From positions 50,773 to 109,031 of the forward strand of contig NZ_MCVI01000094.1 in assembly GCF_002873135.1 (NCBI RefSeq): a stretch of 58,259 bases of DNA, in the 5' to 3' direction. Numbering within the stretch: the stretch's first letter is position 1; every line of letters starts with the position of its first letter. Positions 52,491 to 58,259 of this stretch are shown here, one piece after another. Below the pieces are notes generated by a model. That model ran no database searches and had not been told where the DNA came from. It was given only the letters and a program-made list of their open reading frames with translations. The stretch comes from Shewanella sp. 10N.286.48.A6. Lineage in GTDB: Bacteria; Pseudomonadota; Gammaproteobacteria; Enterobacterales; Shewanellaceae. The translations under genes were made by a program, and so were the position numbers.

Positions 52491-54173
52491 ATGCAGGAAA
52501 ACTTCAGTTTATTTTCCAGGAATAAAGCCTTTCCCGAGCTATTATTGTCATCGACATTTATCAATTTATTGTCGCTTGCACTGCCATTCACCATGCTACA
52601 AATCTACGATCGTATTCTGCCAAATCAAGGTTATGGTACTGCCACTATTCTTGTTTCTGGTGTGGCGATTGCGATTTTGCTGGAATTATTACTCAGATAT
52701 GGCCGCAGTTGGCTACTTGCAGCATCAGCAGCCAATTTTGAATTAGAAACCACAACCAAGGTGGTTAACAAGCTCATGCAAGCGGACTATCACCATGTTG
52801 AAGCCATGGGAACAGGTAAAGTTACTAATGGTTTAGCCAGTATTGCGAGTATGCGAGAGCTCTATTCAGGGCAAGCAATTGTGGCACTCATGGATTTTCC
52901 ATTTGTGCTCATTTTTCTTGCATTGGTTGCCTATATTGGTGGCCCGCTGGTATTCATTCCGATAGTCGTCTGGGTACTTGTTGGCGCTCTGGTTTATGTC
53001 ATTGGCAAAAAACTCGCCATAGCCACTGAGGATCTCGCTCTTTCAGATGCTGAACGAACCCGAATGTTGATACTGGTGTTATCAGGGCTAACCACAGCCA
53101 AGGCCCTATCTTTAGAAGACCGATTAGCCAGTATTTATAATAAAATAAACCACCAGCGACTAGCGCAACAGCAACAAGTCGATTGGTTATCAGCTAAGTT
53201 ACAAGAAGTCATCCAAGCAGCATCGCAAGGAACAACACTAATATTAGTGATGCTAGGTTGTTTAGAAGTCCTTAACGGTTCGCTTACAACGGGTGGACTG
53301 GCTGCATGTTCAATATTAGCGGGTCGCGCCATCGCACCATTAAGTGCAATTATTAGCCTTCGTTCTCGACTTGTGAGTGCCAAAACGGCGATGTCACACG
53401 TAGATGATTTGACCGCCATTCCAGCCGAAGCGTTTAGTGCTGAAAAAATCTATCAACAAAAAATCCCTAACGGCCCTATTAGGTTTCAAAAAGTCGATAG
53501 CAGTAATTTAGGCACTGTCATTCAACAGTTGAATTTAGAGATCCTCCCTAAAACCTTAGTTACCCTGCAATCAAATCCCCTGAGTCATGCTAGCCACTTA
53601 CTCAGTATCATTGCTGGATTTCAAAAGATAAGTACAGGTGAAGTCGCCATTGATGGGGTTTTACTTCATGCACACGATAGTAAAGAGTTTCGACAGTCCG
53701 TTAACTATGTTGCCCCTTGGCCAACCTTATTTGCAGGTAGTTTACTTGAGAATATGACGATGTTCCGAGCAGAGTATGAACCACAAGCAATGGCAATTGC
53801 TGACAGTTTAGGCTTAACGGCTAAAATTGCCGAATTGCCCAATGGTTATCAAACTTCAGTCGGTGAAAATGACAACCGAATGCTAAATAAAGGGGCAATT
53901 AAACTCATTGCAATAGTCAGAGCGATAGTCCAAAAACCGTCGATATTGCTATTGGATGAGCCGATGATTTCACTTGATGCCGATGCCCAAAATAAACTAC
54001 TCACTTTATTGGCCCAACTGAAACAACAAATGACCATTGTAGCGGCATCCCACTACCCTGAAATCGGTAAAATTAGTGATGAAGTTGTCACAATTGAGGG
54101 ACATGCTCAGCCTAAAGAAACTAATAAATCGCCGCACGTGGATAATAGTGATTCACAGGAGGTGATCCTATGA
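52491..54173 (+). CDS. Type I secretion ABC transporter with degenerate ATP site
   Basis: A 560-residue exporter of the T1SS permease-ATPase class, without an N-terminal peptidase. The membrane domain occupies about 18-300. The nucleotide domain follows from about 325. The Walker A region reads LQSNPLSHASHLL: A367 stands at the position of the catalytic Lys, and the P-loop glycines are gone. The signature LSGGQ is LNKGA (465-469). The Walker B ILLLDEP (485-491) and an H-loop H521 remain. ATP binding at this site is therefore unlikely. It overlaps the next ABC gene by 4 bp (ATGA), so a heterodimer is expected. AAGGA lies 10 bp before the ATG. Confidence 0.85.
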   Translation: MQENFSLFSRNKAFPELLLSSTFINLLSLALPFTMLQIYDRILPNQGYGTATILVSGVAIAILLELLLRYGRSWLLAASAANFELETTTKVVNKLMQADYHHVEAMGTGKVTNGLASIASMRELYSGQAIVALMDFPFVLIFLALVAYIGGPLVFIPIVVWVLVGALVYVIGKKLAIATEDLALSDAERTRMLILVLSGLTTAKALSLEDRLASIYNKINHQRLAQQQQVDWLSAKLQEVIQAASQGTTLILVMLGCLEVLNGSLTTGGLAACSILAGRAIAPLSAIISLRSRLVSAKTAMSHVDDLTAIPAEAFSAEKIYQQKIPNGPIRFQKVDSSNLGTVIQQLNLEILPKTLVTLQSNPLSHASHLLSIIAGFQKISTGEVAIDGVLLHAHDSKEFRQSVNYVAPWPTLFAGSLLENMTMFRAEYEPQAMAIADSLGLTAKIAELPNGYQTSVGENDNRMLNKGAIKLIAIVRAIVQKPSILLLDEPMISLDADAQNKLLTLLAQLKQQMTIVAASHYPEIGKISDEVVTIEGHAQPKETNKSPHVDNSDSQEVIL

Positions 54174-56242
54174 AGACTTTAGAACTAAAACCATTACTAG
54201 TTGAGCTGTTACAACAATTAGGTCTTTACACTCAAGCCAGTAACGTGGCTAGTGGCACTGAAAACGATCTCAATACTCTCGCTGTTTCCCGCTTATTAAA
54301 AAAACATCAAATTGGTTTCTCTGTTATTAAACCGTCAGATAGTACCCTGCATTTAACCATCTACCCTTTCTTAGTTGTCCCAGCGAAAGACAATGCCTTT
54401 ATAGCAAGAAGACAGGGACATCAGTTCGAAAAACTAGAGAATAATCATTGGCAAACGGTCGATATGACTCAGCTAACAGATGATGCATACTTATTTGTTA
54501 TTGATGCCTTACCTCGTAGTAAAAAGAGTGTTCAAGCATTCGCCGCTCACATGAGTAAGAGAACTAAATGGTATCGTCCCGTTTTCTGGCTGAGTTTACT
54601 GTCCAGTATTACAGGGTTAGCAGTACCTCTGTTTACCATGGCTGTATATGACCGAGTCATTGGTGGTCAAACACCCTCCATACTCCCCAGCATAGCCTTA
54701 GGTGGAGCGCTTGCTGTTGGCGTATTAGTATCAACCCGCTTAGCGCGGGCGCAAATTCTTGCCACCACCAGTAATCGATTTGCTAGAGACCTTTCCCAGA
54801 TAACCTTTTATCGACTATTACACATGCCGTTAATGGTACTGTCACGCGTCGGCATTTCAAATCATATCGCTAGAATGCGTAATGCAGAAAAAGTCAGAAT
54901 GCTCTTATCTGGCCCTGGAGGCGGCGGCTTAGTCGACCTGCCCTTCACTATTATTGCGCTGCTGGCGATTATGTTTTTAAGTGGCTGGCTAGTATTAGTG
55001 CCTATTGGCATGTTGATGCTGTATTACTTGGTGATGAAAGTCGTCAGCCGCTATGTTCAGGCAGCCTCGCCAACAATTAGTGGCGAGTATCAAAATACCC
55101 TAAGCGAACTAGCGAAAAATCTACTGCAACTCAAAGCGGCTGGTGATACTGAAGGCTGGCAAACAAAATTTATTCGTCAATGCCGTGAAAATAGTCGCCA
55201 GAATTTTCTTTATGCTAAACGAAATGGCCTAAATGCAGCCATTGCTCATTCACTGAGTTTATTCACTGCACTCATCACAGTGTTTACGGGAATATTTTTA
55301 GTACTAAATCAAACGATTTCCTCCGGTGCATTAATTGCCTGTGTGATGATGATTTGGCGGATTACAGGCCCTGCACAACTGGCATTTTCATCTCAACAAA
55401 AATTCACCATGATGGATGTTGCCGTAAAACAGTTTGATCGGTTCATGCAGGCAACAACGGAACAATCAGAATTACGCTTAGACACCCCTGATAACACTCA
55501 AGCACCAGCAATTTCATTTCAGCATTTAACCCTGAGATATAAAGCTGAAGGAGAGCCGGCACTATCAGGTGTGAATGTAGACATAGAACCCGGTGAATTA
55601 GTTGCCGTTATAGGGCCCAATGCCTGTGGTAAATCAACCTTGCTACTGAGCGCCTTAGGCGTGTTGGAAGCACAAGCTGGATTTGTCACCGTGAATGGGA
55701 AAAATTTAAAACAATATGACACTGAAATATTTAGGCATTGGGTGGCTTATAGCCCATCACAACCTGATATTTTCCCAGGGACTTTAGCTGAAAATATTCG
55801 GATAGCGAAACCAGATGCTACCGATGATGAAATTAAAACCGCAATAATTGCCGCTGGTGGGGCCAGCTTTTTTAATAGCATCAATAATGACTTATCGGTT
55901 GATTTACTCGGTGAGAATAACGCCATGCTTTCCGCTATCGAAGGGAGTTACATCAACCTTGCCCGCGCACTGATAAAACAATCGCCATTGTTATTGCTTG
56001 ATGAACCATTACCTCATCGAAATCCAGAATCAAAACAGCAGTTGATAAAGACCTTATTAAACTTAAAAGGACAATCAACCGTAATGTTTACTAGCCACGA
56101 TCAAGATTTAATTAAACACGCTGACAAGGTCATTATTCTTGATAAAGGCGCTGTGGTTTATGCAGGCCCAATTCCAGACCAAGCACCTCAAACGCCAGAT
56201 GCCACTAACACCGTCATGCAGGAGTCTCCAACCAATGGATAA
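54170..56242 (+). CDS. Type I secretion ABC transporter with N-terminal C39-like domain
   Basis: A 690-residue exporter. Residues 1-130 are a C39-like domain without the catalytic Cys (so non-proteolytic). The membrane domain spans about 135-420. The nucleotide domain has an intact Walker A GPNACGKST (482-490), a Q-loop near Q531, Walker B LLLLDEP (to E612) and an H-loop H643. The signature is LSAIE (587-591) instead of LSGGQ, and the D-loop is replaced by PHRNPE. Paired with the upstream ABC protein, its intact Walker A would face that protein's LNKGA. It overlaps the HlyD gene by 8 bp. Confidence 0.88.
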   Translation: MKTLELKPLLVELLQQLGLYTQASNVASGTENDLNTLAVSRLLKKHQIGFSVIKPSDSTLHLTIYPFLVVPAKDNAFIARRQGHQFEKLENNHWQTVDMTQLTDDAYLFVIDALPRSKKSVQAFAAHMSKRTKWYRPVFWLSLLSSITGLAVPLFTMAVYDRVIGGQTPSILPSIALGGALAVGVLVSTRLARAQILATTSNRFARDLSQITFYRLLHMPLMVLSRVGISNHIARMRNAEKVRMLLSGPGGGGLVDLPFTIIALLAIMFLSGWLVLVPIGMLMLYYLVMKVVSRYVQAASPTISGEYQNTLSELAKNLLQLKAAGDTEGWQTKFIRQCRENSRQNFLYAKRNGLNAAIAHSLSLFTALITVFTGIFLVLNQTISSGALIACVMMIWRITGPAQLAFSSQQKFTMMDVAVKQFDRFMQATTEQSELRLDTPDNTQAPAISFQHLTLRYKAEGEPALSGVNVDIEPGELVAVIGPNACGKSTLLLSALGVLEAQAGFVTVNGKNLKQYDTEIFRHWVAYSPSQPDIFPGTLAENIRIAKPDATDDEIKTAIIAAGGASFFNSINNDLSVDLLGENNAMLSAIEGSYINLARALIKQSPLLLLDEPLPHRNPESKQQLIKTLLNLKGQSTVMFTSHDQDLIKHADKVIILDKGAVVYAGPIPDQAPQTPDATNTVMQESPTNG

Positions 56243-57560
56243 TCGTCAACTAGCTAATCGAGTCTGGCCAGAACATGAATTTGCAGAAGCAATTGAAGCC
56301 CCTGCTGAGCGTAAATTAATTCGAAATATCATCTTATTGATCACCGGCTCAATTTTAATCATGTTGGTTTGGTCTGTTTTTACCAGCGTAGAAGAAATTT
56401 CAAAATCCAAAGGACAAGTGGTGCCGTTAGGCCATAGGCAGGTTATTCAAAGCCGTGCTGGTGGCACTATTGCTTCTGTCGTAGTCGAAGAAGGTGACGT
56501 TGTTAAACAAGGTGATATTTTGGCAAGCTTTGTCTCAATAGACAGCTTGTCAACTGAGGAAGAACTATCCAGTAAACGTGCTAACTTAATGATGCGAATT
56601 GAACGTTACGAAGCCTTCATTGATGCTCGCGATGCCAATTTTGATGAGTTCGCCTATGAGTACCCGCAACTGGTTAAGCTGCATCAGTCTTCGCTTAATC
56701 GCATGATCGATGAACGAGTGGCAATTGAGCAGCTATCAGAATCTGAAATAGCCAAATCTCAAGCGGAATTGGATGGTTTGAAAACTGAAATACCTCCCCT
56801 TAGCGATCAAATCCAAACCGCAGAACAAACGTTAAAAATGATGTTGTCAGTAACAGAAGAGCAAGCCGTTTCAAAGTTACGCATTTTAGAATCACAGCAA
56901 AAGCTTGATTCTTACATGCGAGAGCTAAAGGCGATGGAAAGCAAACAACAAGTTCTCACCAAGAACCTGCTAAATCTGCAGCAACAACTCAAACAAAGAC
57001 AGGCTTCATTATTAAAAGAAGTCGGTGAAAAACGTACTGACACCCAAGCTGAATTATTAGGTGTCACAGCAAGGCTTAAATCATCCAGCTCACTGGTATC
57101 TCAAAACACCGTAACCGCGCCTGTTGACGGCATCATTCAATCAATCCCAACATCTTCAACTGGCAGCGTCATTCAACCAGGTGGGACTGTGGCTGTAATT
57201 GTTCCCATGACCAAAACGGGTTTGATGGAAATTAAGCTGTCACCAAGAGATATCGGCTTTGTCCATGTTGGTCAATCAGCAAGAATCAAAATCGATGCGT
57301 TTGATTACAGCCGTTATGGCGCGTTAGATGGAATCGTAAAACGTATTTCACCAAGCACAGATAAAGATGAAAAAGGCGGTGTATTTTATAAAGTGCAGCT
57401 TGCCATTGATAAGCCCTACTTTTTGGATAATCCCGATAGTTTTGCATTAATTCCTGGAATGACTGGCGAAGCAGATATTGTGACAGGTGAAAAAAGTGTC
57501 TTCCAGTACTTATGGAAACCAGTGTTCACCAACATTAACGAAGCATTTGGCGAAAGATAA
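56235..57560 (+). CDS. HlyD-family periplasmic adaptor subunit
   Basis: A 441-residue membrane fusion protein of type I secretion. One N-terminal transmembrane helix (about 29-51: IILLITGSILIMLVWSVFTS), a lipoyl-like half (RAGGTIASVVVEEGDVVKQGDIL), a long coiled coil (about 95-290) and the second lipoyl half with TVTAPVDGIIQSIP. The C-terminal beta-barrel domain ends near VTGEKSVFQYLWKPV. It links the inner-membrane ABC proteins to a TolC-type channel, which is not in this window. ATG 56235 has AGGAG 9 bp upstream. The frame opens earlier, but that stretch overlaps the ABC gene. Confidence 0.93.
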   Translation: MDNRQLANRVWPEHEFAEAIEAPAERKLIRNIILLITGSILIMLVWSVFTSVEEISKSKGQVVPLGHRQVIQSRAGGTIASVVVEEGDVVKQGDILASFVSIDSLSTEEELSSKRANLMMRIERYEAFIDARDANFDEFAYEYPQLVKLHQSSLNRMIDERVAIEQLSESEIAKSQAELDGLKTEIPPLSDQIQTAEQTLKMMLSVTEEQAVSKLRILESQQKLDSYMRELKAMESKQQVLTKNLLNLQQQLKQRQASLLKEVGEKRTDTQAELLGVTARLKSSSSLVSQNTVTAPVDGIIQSIPTSSTGSVIQPGGTVAVIVPMTKTGLMEIKLSPRDIGFVHVGQSARIKIDAFDYSRYGALDGIVKRISPSTDKDEKGGVFYKVQLAIDKPYFLDNPDSFALIPGMTGEADIVTGEKSVFQYLWKPVFTNINEAFGER

Positions 57561-57576: not shown

Positions 57577-58259
57577 ATGAGCACGGATAATAAAGATAAT
57601 AAAAATAAGCCAAATGAAAAAAATAAACTCAAAAAAGATCTGCCCGAAAATAAAATCCAGCAAGCAATAAAGAAAATTGATAATGATGCTAAAAAGTTGC
57701 GGGCAAAAGAATCTCGAGATACGGGGAACATAACCCCAAATAGACAAAATGATCTGGTAGCTGACAAGTCTTGGCAGACGAATATAGCGAATGCATCTGA
57801 GGATGATAAAGCAACTGAAGCAGATTTTACTCATGCAGCTACTAATCCAGAAGCTACTCAGCAAGACGTTTTAAAAACATCCACAACGCCACAACAGTTA
57901 ACAAGCTCAACACTTAAAAATGCCAGTCAAATCGCTGATAGCAACCCGATAGAACCGAGTCAGCAGCAGCCATTAAATAAGCTTATTGTAGAAACAGGTT
58001 CAACTCAAACAACAGGACTAGCAGCGGGTGCACATTTTCATAATGGTAATGTCACAACCCAAGACATAAGCCAATTTAGAACATCTCAAATTTCGTTACC
58101 TGAACAAAACTTTCAGACTGCTTTTACCATTAATTCATCATCTCATTCAGTATCAAATGTAATCACACCACAAACTGCAACACATGAAGTGACTGAGACA
58201 CTAAAAGGTGCCCCAACACCTGACATTACCCCTCCCTCTACTGGCACTGGCACTGGCAC
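57577..58259 (+). CDS. N-terminal part of a large T1SS-linked protein, probably an adhesin (runs off window)
   Basis: At least 227 residues and open at the right edge. ATG 57577 has AGGAG 6 bp upstream and lies 16 bp after the HlyD stop. The sequence is low-complexity: Lys/Asn-rich at the start (NKDNKNKPNEKNKLKKDL), then Ser/Thr/Gln-rich, ending in a Thr-Gly repeat (GGCACT units) that continues off the edge. There is no signal peptide, as expected for a type I substrate whose signal is at the C terminus. The position behind the exporter and HlyD genes suggests an RTX/VCBS-type adhesin, but no calcium repeat is visible, so this is inference. A regulator or linker protein is the alternative. 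Confidence 0.6.
   Translation, partial: MSTDNKDNKNKPNEKNKLKKDLPENKIQQAIKKIDNDAKKLRAKESRDTGNITPNRQNDLVADKSWQTNIANASEDDKATEADFTHAATNPEATQQDVLKTSTTPQQLTSSTLKNASQIADSNPIEPSQQQPLNKLIVETGSTQTTGLAAGAHFHNGNVTTQDISQFRTSQISLPEQNFQTAFTINSSSHSVSNVITPQTATHEVTETLKGAPTPDITPPSTGTGTG

Follow-up and report, generated by a model that had tools for sequence, protein, structure and literature searches.

A putative heterodimeric exporter beside giant adhesin genes in Shewanella, with one composite ATP site conserved and its mirror site apparently erased from both sides

The 58,259-nucleotide stretch of Shewanella sp. 10N.286.48.A6 analyzed here (the window) encodes, toward its end, two ATP-binding cassette (ABC) proteins, which we call P1 and P2, in intact reading frames that overlap by 4 nucleotides. 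Each has a transmembrane domain (TMD) and a nucleotide-binding domain (NBD), and they are followed by a HlyD-type adaptor and by the start of a long open reading frame (ORF) that leaves the contig end. The ATP-site motifs that the two proteins have lost appear to sort by composite site, such that one site of a P1-P2 dimer would be kept and the mirror site erased from both sides. The same arrangement turns up in numerous marine bacteria. We consider it likely that the pair is a heterodimer of the type 1 secretion kind, in which the single degenerate site known from other heterodimeric exporters is taken to an extreme, and that it exports giant adhesins with cadherin or VCBS repeats.

Each ATP site of an ABC dimer is formed by the Walker A and Walker B motifs and the A-, Q-, and H-loops of one protein and by its partner's signature, the D-loops lying between the two (PMC7756269). 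In P1 of the window, the site expected for GxxxxGK[ST] is occupied by SNPLSHASH, with A367 at the lysine position. The aromatic residue of the A-loop and the glutamine of the Q-loop are absent as well; a normal SLD D-loop and the glycine at the fourth position of the signature, LNKGA, are kept. P2 is likewise without the Q-loop glutamine. The original prediction did not remark on these A-loop and Q-loop losses or on what P1 retains.

A scan of named genomes returned 80 loci, which were assigned from sequence identity and gene layout to two groups, clades A and B, whose sampled members later separated in trees. Clade A, which includes the window, comprises loci from Shewanella, Agarivorans, Colwellia, Psychromonas, and some Vibrio, mostly with the long ORF downstream on the same strand. 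Across its 37 full-length P1 proteins (window included; median pairwise identity, 61%), the Walker A lysine, the A-loop Tyr/Phe, and the Q-loop glutamine are each found in 0/37 and the H-loop histidine in 18/37, while the signature glycine and the D-loop aspartate are invariant (Table 1). Among the 39 clade A P2 proteins, again with the window, the A-loop tyrosine, Walker A lysine, Walker B aspartate, and H-loop histidine are each present in all 39 and the catalytic glutamate in 38; the D-loop aspartate, like the signature glycine, occurs in none. Left out of these counts were the P1 of L037 (truncated by the contig to 429 aa), the P1 pieces of L077, the P2 pieces of L095, and L094, which belongs to another family. 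Larger sets were built from the best 98 of 472, 78 of 161, and 120 of 159 matches and, once short rows (P0083, P0095, P0197, P0310, P0336, P0343, and P0361) had been removed, held 96 P1 and 77 P2 proteins of clade A and 116 P2 proteins of clade B. Among these listed matches, the clade A proteins agree with the pattern above: the P2 D-loop aspartate is absent from all 77, and the catalytic glutamate is present in 70 and replaced by aspartate in seven.

Placed in a dimer, the signature glycine and D-loop aspartate conserved in P1 face the A-loop, Walker A, Walker B, and H-loop conserved in P2. Counting 14 motif elements, six of seven are lost at one site and six of seven are kept at the other (Fisher P = 0.015, for elements that are non-independent). 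Exceptions to a perfect split are the lost Q-loop glutamine of P2, the mostly kept Walker B of P1, and the change of serine to asparagine in the P1 signature. The LNKGA of P1 therewith reads as a conserved variant that retains the critical glycine, still non-canonical, rather than as a decayed signature. A pattern search made free of any alignment, with the window excluded, found Walker A in 0/36 clade A and 0/41 clade B P1 proteins and in 38/38 and 40/40 of the respective P2 proteins; an LSGGQ-like pattern turned up in 11 of these 155 proteins, never at the signature position. The original prediction had described the loss of Walker A in P1, with A367 and an LNKGA signature, and in P2 an intact Walker A and Walker B next to an LSAIE signature and an altered D-loop; motif reading and the pattern search confirm the former description, and the latter is likewise borne out. 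Its conclusion that neither site would be canonical holds in so far as the kept site has asparagine for serine in its signature and no P2 Q-loop glutamine, but it hides the division into one kept and one erased site.

The loop that replaces the P-loop in P1 is under strong purifying selection. Over the 15 pairs formed by the window and five near relatives, the nonsynonymous differences counted per site (pN) amount to 0.015 at the former Walker A columns vs 0.165 across the P1 NBD, with synonymous differences of 0.91 and 0.78, respectively, both saturated. The closest P1, from Shewanella sp. 3_MG-2023, is 99% identical, and S. oneidensis MR-1 holds an orthologue at 63% identity. Of 146 Shewanellaceae genomes, 37 have a match of the P1 type (E ≤ 4.8e-137), as do 26 of 295 genomes sampled across the order (E ≤ 1.3e-124), both counts being based on the match alone.

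That P1 and P2 would form a heterodimer, as had been proposed from the gene overlap, is supported by their constant pairing, by natural fusions, and by their separation into two deep tree groups. The P1, P2, and HlyD-like genes stand together in that order in 79 of the 80 loci, including three with a cut or interrupted gene; all three genes exceed 350 aa in 77 loci, and P1 and P2 share the 4-nucleotide overlap in 48 of these. When the P2 alignment was searched against 398 genomes of the phylum, 17 matches lay in open frames longer than 1300 aa, and all eight that were fetched are P1-P2 fusions from other Proteobacteria (ORFs of 1292-1386 aa), with an N-terminal half that matches P1 and a C-terminal half that matches P2 or LapB, the ABC protein of another giant-adhesin exporter. 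The other 12 regions fetched hold six unfused pairs, two clade A pairs, and four LapB-type genes. P1-like and P2-like proteins form separate groups both in a whole-protein tree made by a quick method and in a tree of the TMDs (100/99 for each group in the latter), and LapB falls outside both, closer to P2 than to P1. This excludes a recent duplication of the genome's own LapB as the origin of the pair.

The distant pairs also suggest an order of loss. In 14 of them, the P1-like half keeps the Walker A lysine in 13, the signature glycine and the D-loop aspartate in 14 each, and the H-loop histidine in two; the P2-like half keeps the lysine in 14, the histidine in 13, the D-loop aspartate in 14, and the signature glycine in nine. 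The same composite site would therefore have been protected throughout, and erosion of the other would have begun with the P1 H-loop and the P2 signature. The P1 proteins that lack Walker A (clades A and B and L138) come together on one branch (99/93), and their partners do so on a second (91/95, just below the star). L138 (L138:4886-8667), which branches just outside clades A and B and comes from a different family within the same class, appears intermediate: Walker A is missing from its P1 as well, and its P2, with DD in Walker B, still has the D-loop aspartate and the Q-loop glutamine, so that we place the loss of the P2 Q-loop after the L138 split. The suggested sequence thus runs from the P1 H-loop and P2 signature to the P1 Walker A and both Q-loops, then to the P2 D-loop (clades A and B), and last to the P2 glutamate (clade B). 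A single episode on one pair of matching branches was rejected, since the signature glycine is already missing in some P2 relatives whose partner is intact (5 of 14) and the P2 of L138 keeps its D-loop aspartate.

By gene content the pair belongs with type 1 secretion systems (T1SSs). The adaptor scores above the TIGR01843 cut-off (Table 1) and is part of the operon in 79/80 loci, and the best NCBIfam match of both ABC proteins is the LssB-type T1SS ATPase family TIGR03375 (336 bits for P1 and 316 bits for P2, both below the cut-off of 693). No gene for a TolC-type channel adjoins P1-P2; TolC- or LapE-like genes lie elsewhere in the genome and are not tied to the pair. An AlphaFold2 (AF2) model of P1 keeps the NBD fold (predicted local distance difference test, 72-93 in blocks there; predicted template modeling score [pTM], 0.60), with a helix that starts early, at residue 365, and its best match in the PDB is HlyB of the HlyB/D complex. 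The P2 model aligns over its full length with HlyB (7sgr_A) and with PCAT1 chains, including the N-terminal region that is absent from P1.

The gene that follows the adaptor is cut in the window, and relatives indicate what it encodes. In a complete related genome (G036), the adjoining ORF is 4734 aa long and carries cadherin-like, Big_9, and VCBS repeats; beside a clade B operon (G386), it is 5147 aa long, with VCBS and tandem-95 repeats. The large protein that had been predicted as the next gene is hence a giant repeat protein in these relatives. A stretch of the form ETTGLxxGxxF recurs near residue 150 of the adhesin N-terminus (57577-58259), with AA in its middle in the window and in L016 (LAAG), and with GS (in GSG) or HS (in HSG) in L022 and L030. 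An N-terminus cleavable by LapG at a di-alanine was considered as a feature common to the system and dropped, being unconserved across the loci compared.

Table 1. Coordinates of the P1-P2 operon and of its ATP-site motifs in the window (listed, among the matches listed)
Feature	Position	Strand	Remarks
P1, ABC half-exporter without Walker A; TMD and NBD, no N-terminal C39-like region	52491..54173	+	560 aa; Pfam ABC_membrane, ABC_tran
P1 former Walker A SNPLSHASH, residues 361-369	53571..53597	+	
P1 former Q-loop YVAPWPTLF, Gln lost	53706..53732	+	
P1 signature LNKGA, residues 465-469, Gly468 kept	53883..53897	+	Gly 37/37; 96/96 listed
P1 Walker B ILLLDEP and D-loop ISLD (Asp496)	53943..53978	+	D-loop Asp 37/37; 96/96 listed
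P2, N-terminal C39-like region, TMD, and NBD; Walker A intact	54170..56242	+	690 aa; Pfam
P2 Walker A GPNACGKST, residues 482-490	55613..55639	+	Lys 39/39; 77/77 listed
P2 eroded signature LSAIEGS, residues 587-593	55928..55948	+	Signature Gly 0/39; 0/77 listed
P2 Walker B LLLLDEP (Glu612; residues 607-613) and eroded D-loop PHRN (615-618)	55988..56023	+	
P2 H-loop TSHDQ	56090..56104	+	His 39/39; 76/77 listed
Periplasmic adaptor, HlyD-type	56235..57560	+	441 aa, ATG start; TIGR01843 400 bits, cut-off 209
Giant adhesin gene start, truncated by contig end	57577..58259	+	ORF open at window end; neighbors in relatives are long repeat proteins

We propose that P1 and P2 act together as an ABC exporter of the type 1 secretion kind, in the form of an obligate heterodimer. 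Its further components would be the HlyD-like adaptor and a TolC-like channel whose gene lies elsewhere, and its cargo would be the giant repeat adhesin encoded next to it. ATP would be bound and hydrolyzed at a single composite site, composed of the A-loop, Walker A, Walker B glutamate, and H-loop of P2 and closed by the LNKGA and SLD motifs of P1. The mirror site, where the former Walker A, A-loop, and Q-loop of P1 would meet the signature and D-loop of P2, would no longer bind ATP as such sites normally do, and its role is probably that of a fixed hinge. Since P1 is without the N-terminal C39-like region, each dimer would carry one such domain, on its ATP-binding half; in HlyB, specificity is determined mainly by this domain, which also makes contact with HlyD (PMC11026475).

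The most surprising result comes from the sister group and not from the window's own pair. Clade B, from Vibrio, Aliivibrio, and Ferrimonas, mostly has the long ORF converging from the opposite side. Its P1 proteins are without a P-loop (Walker A lysine, 0/41) and keep the D-loop aspartate (41/41) and mostly the signature glycine (35/41), and its P2 proteins keep the Walker A lysine and Walker B aspartate (40/40 each; 116/116 among the matches listed) and mostly the histidine (35/40). The P2 D-loop column is gapped in 13/40, which makes the alignment uncertain there. The catalytic glutamate, present in the window and in clade A, is found in 0/40 clade B P2 proteins, 37 of which have asparagine, and in 0/116 among the matches listed (asparagine in 111, serine in three, glycine in two). 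At the equivalent position, P1 has arginine or lysine in 31/41 and glutamate in one (L089). The P2 NBD is nevertheless strongly constrained, with ratios of nonsynonymous to synonymous rates (dN/dS) of 0.015 in a V. splendidus-group set and 0.070 in Aliivibrio; the P1 NBD gives 0.063 and 0.128, respectively. As a tentative and rather doubtful extension, secretion of giant adhesins may have been freed stepwise from ATP hydrolysis, one site being erased from both sides and the last glutamate then being replaced, mostly by asparagine, in Vibrionaceae and Ferrimonas, to leave an ATP-gated channel and a pull from folding outside the cell. If true, nature would here provide an exporter that has no usable canonical catalytic base. 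Both systems are found in V. halioticoli (L072/L077), V. ezurae (L048/L084), and Vibrio sp. UCD-FRSSP16_30 (L049/L089), and clade B is therefore not a simple replacement of clade A. In Vibrio europaeus (L074), the clade B operon lies on a contig labeled as a p251-like plasmid, and the squid symbiont Aliivibrio fischeri also has a clade B pair.

Several points weigh against the heterodimeric motor with one hydrolyzing site that we favor. The Walker B glutamate is retained in 32 of 37 clade A P1 proteins, although a completely dead site could do without it. The kept site is itself non-canonical, with asparagine for the signature serine in 34/37 P1 proteins and the Q-loop glutamine in 0/39 P2 proteins, and its catalytic glutamate is an aspartate in the 7/77 listed P2 matches mentioned above. 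The P2 model has a pTM of only 0.45, the physical P1-P2 complex is predicted from sequence data, and the giant repeat proteins are taken as cargo from gene position. A gated or single-stroke exporter could accommodate some of this, with ATP binding at the remaining site opening or resetting the channel at little or no hydrolysis, Ca2+-dependent folding outside the cell pulling the adhesin, and the clade without glutamate as the pure form. The invariant lysine and Walker B aspartate of clade B P2, in constrained NBDs devoid of the glutamate, fit such a device, as do reports that ATP binding alone drives translocation in TmrAB and TAP (PMC7205462, PMC13040083) and that a TAP D-loop mutant behaves as a nucleotide-gated facilitator (PMC7756269). 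The pull from folding is, however, conjecture, and the window's own clade keeps the glutamate in 70/77 listed matches, which argues for hydrolysis here; we regard this alternative as unlikely for the pair.

Alternatives in which P1 and P2 do not move the adhesin at all fare worse. A canonical LapB and genes resembling LapC and LapE are encoded beside another giant repeat gene in the same genome, and P1 is without a P-loop, so the LapB-type exporter could in principle carry the adhesin and P1 and P2 have turned into a regulator or receptor. Against this very improbable scenario, the pair has its own adaptor gene in 79/80 loci and lies next to a giant gene of its own, and Walker A, Walker B, and H-loop are all retained in P2. 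Decay or assembly error would explain the broken-looking motifs and has a parallel in the interrupted frames of two relatives, the P1 of L077 (V. halioticoli) and the P2 of L095 (V. maritimus), each broken into two frames by sequencing error or real damage. The original prediction held that orthologues with intact motifs would argue for a decayed gene; the degeneracy is instead conserved, and no close orthologue with an intact P1 Walker A occurs among the 37 clade A, 41 clade B, or 96 listed proteins. Because the motif state recurs in 37 clade A proteins of 61% median identity, chance or sequencing error is excluded; with intact frames, the same states in independent assemblies, and strong purifying selection on the former P-loop, we give decay almost no credence.

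The preferred reading, a T1SS-kind heterodimer with one kept site, has precedents in part. TAP, TmrAB, TM287/288, and BmrCD likewise join two unlike halves, kept together, with one kept and one degenerate site. P1-P2 differ from them in that the whole P-loop is gone, not one lysine, in that the loss extends to the D-loop opposite the dead site, in belonging with type 1 secretion, and in the missing kept-site glutamate of clade B. By depth of erosion, the closest counterpart is yeast Pdr5, which has lost the Walker A lysine, catalytic glutamate, H-loop histidine, and opposite signature and is the most eroded of the examples given in a review (PMC7756269); P1-P2 are set apart from it by their type 1 secretion gene content. 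The nearest solved relative, by sequence profile for P1 and by fold for both proteins, is HlyB/HlyD, where HlyB is the product of a single gene and has canonical motifs. The complex is described as three HlyB dimers with six HlyD (PMC11026475). In the entry 8dck, the matched chains have 691 and 570 residues; judging by these lengths, the N-terminal domain seems to be resolved in the first and not in the second, which resembles the difference between P2 and P1 as encoded. LapB of the LapEBC system also exports giant adhesins, but as a single canonical ABC protein, which P1-P2 are not.

T1SSs that require two ABC proteins are already known from MARTX RtxB/RtxE, described with the order rtxB-D-E divergent from the toxin operon (PMC3034196), so that the idea of a heterodimer is not new; P1-P2, in the order ABC-ABC-adaptor next to an adhesin, are set apart from this system by gene order. 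The BapP cluster of Pseudoalteromonas tunicata, considered as a possible further case of the system, is described as having tandem ABC genes and a LolD-like ATPase (PMC12153261). ABC genes also occur near craA (PMC6890996). Among the open-licence papers listed by our searches, we recognized none that describes this pair or a T1SS ABC protein without Walker A, which is weak evidence of absence. New as far as searched are a T1SS half without a P-loop across genera, the two-sided complementarity, the natural fusions, and the clade without the glutamate. In symmetric HlyB-type motors it is difficult to test whether, and from how many sites, export of a very long protein needs repeated ATP hydrolysis. 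Here, an apparent one-site motor and, in its sister clade, an apparent motor without a catalytic base are both conserved and both found beside giant repeat proteins, and the P1 orthologue of S. oneidensis MR-1 would allow the question to be addressed in a laboratory strain.

The genome holds further systems for giant adhesins. The canonical LapB/LapC/LapE genes, with LapG- and LapD-like genes, follow another giant repeat protein on contig C15 (L015:1-12043), and this LapB has the motifs GRNGSGKST, LSRGQ, and DEPTASLD and the histidine. Contig C37 (L014:4553-8326) carries another pair of ABC proteins, of 719 and 536 aa and very diverged, together with genes for a TolC-like protein, a HlyD-like protein, and a hybrid regulator, next to a repeat protein of the cadherin type. 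With the LapB locus, the genome therefore has at least three loci for giant-adhesin export. Both Walker A lysines of the diverged pair are present, while its signatures, D-loops, and H-loops are eroded. It occurs in 6 of 146 Shewanellaceae genomes, and in trees its 536-aa protein groups with P1 and its 719-aa protein with P2, on long branches.

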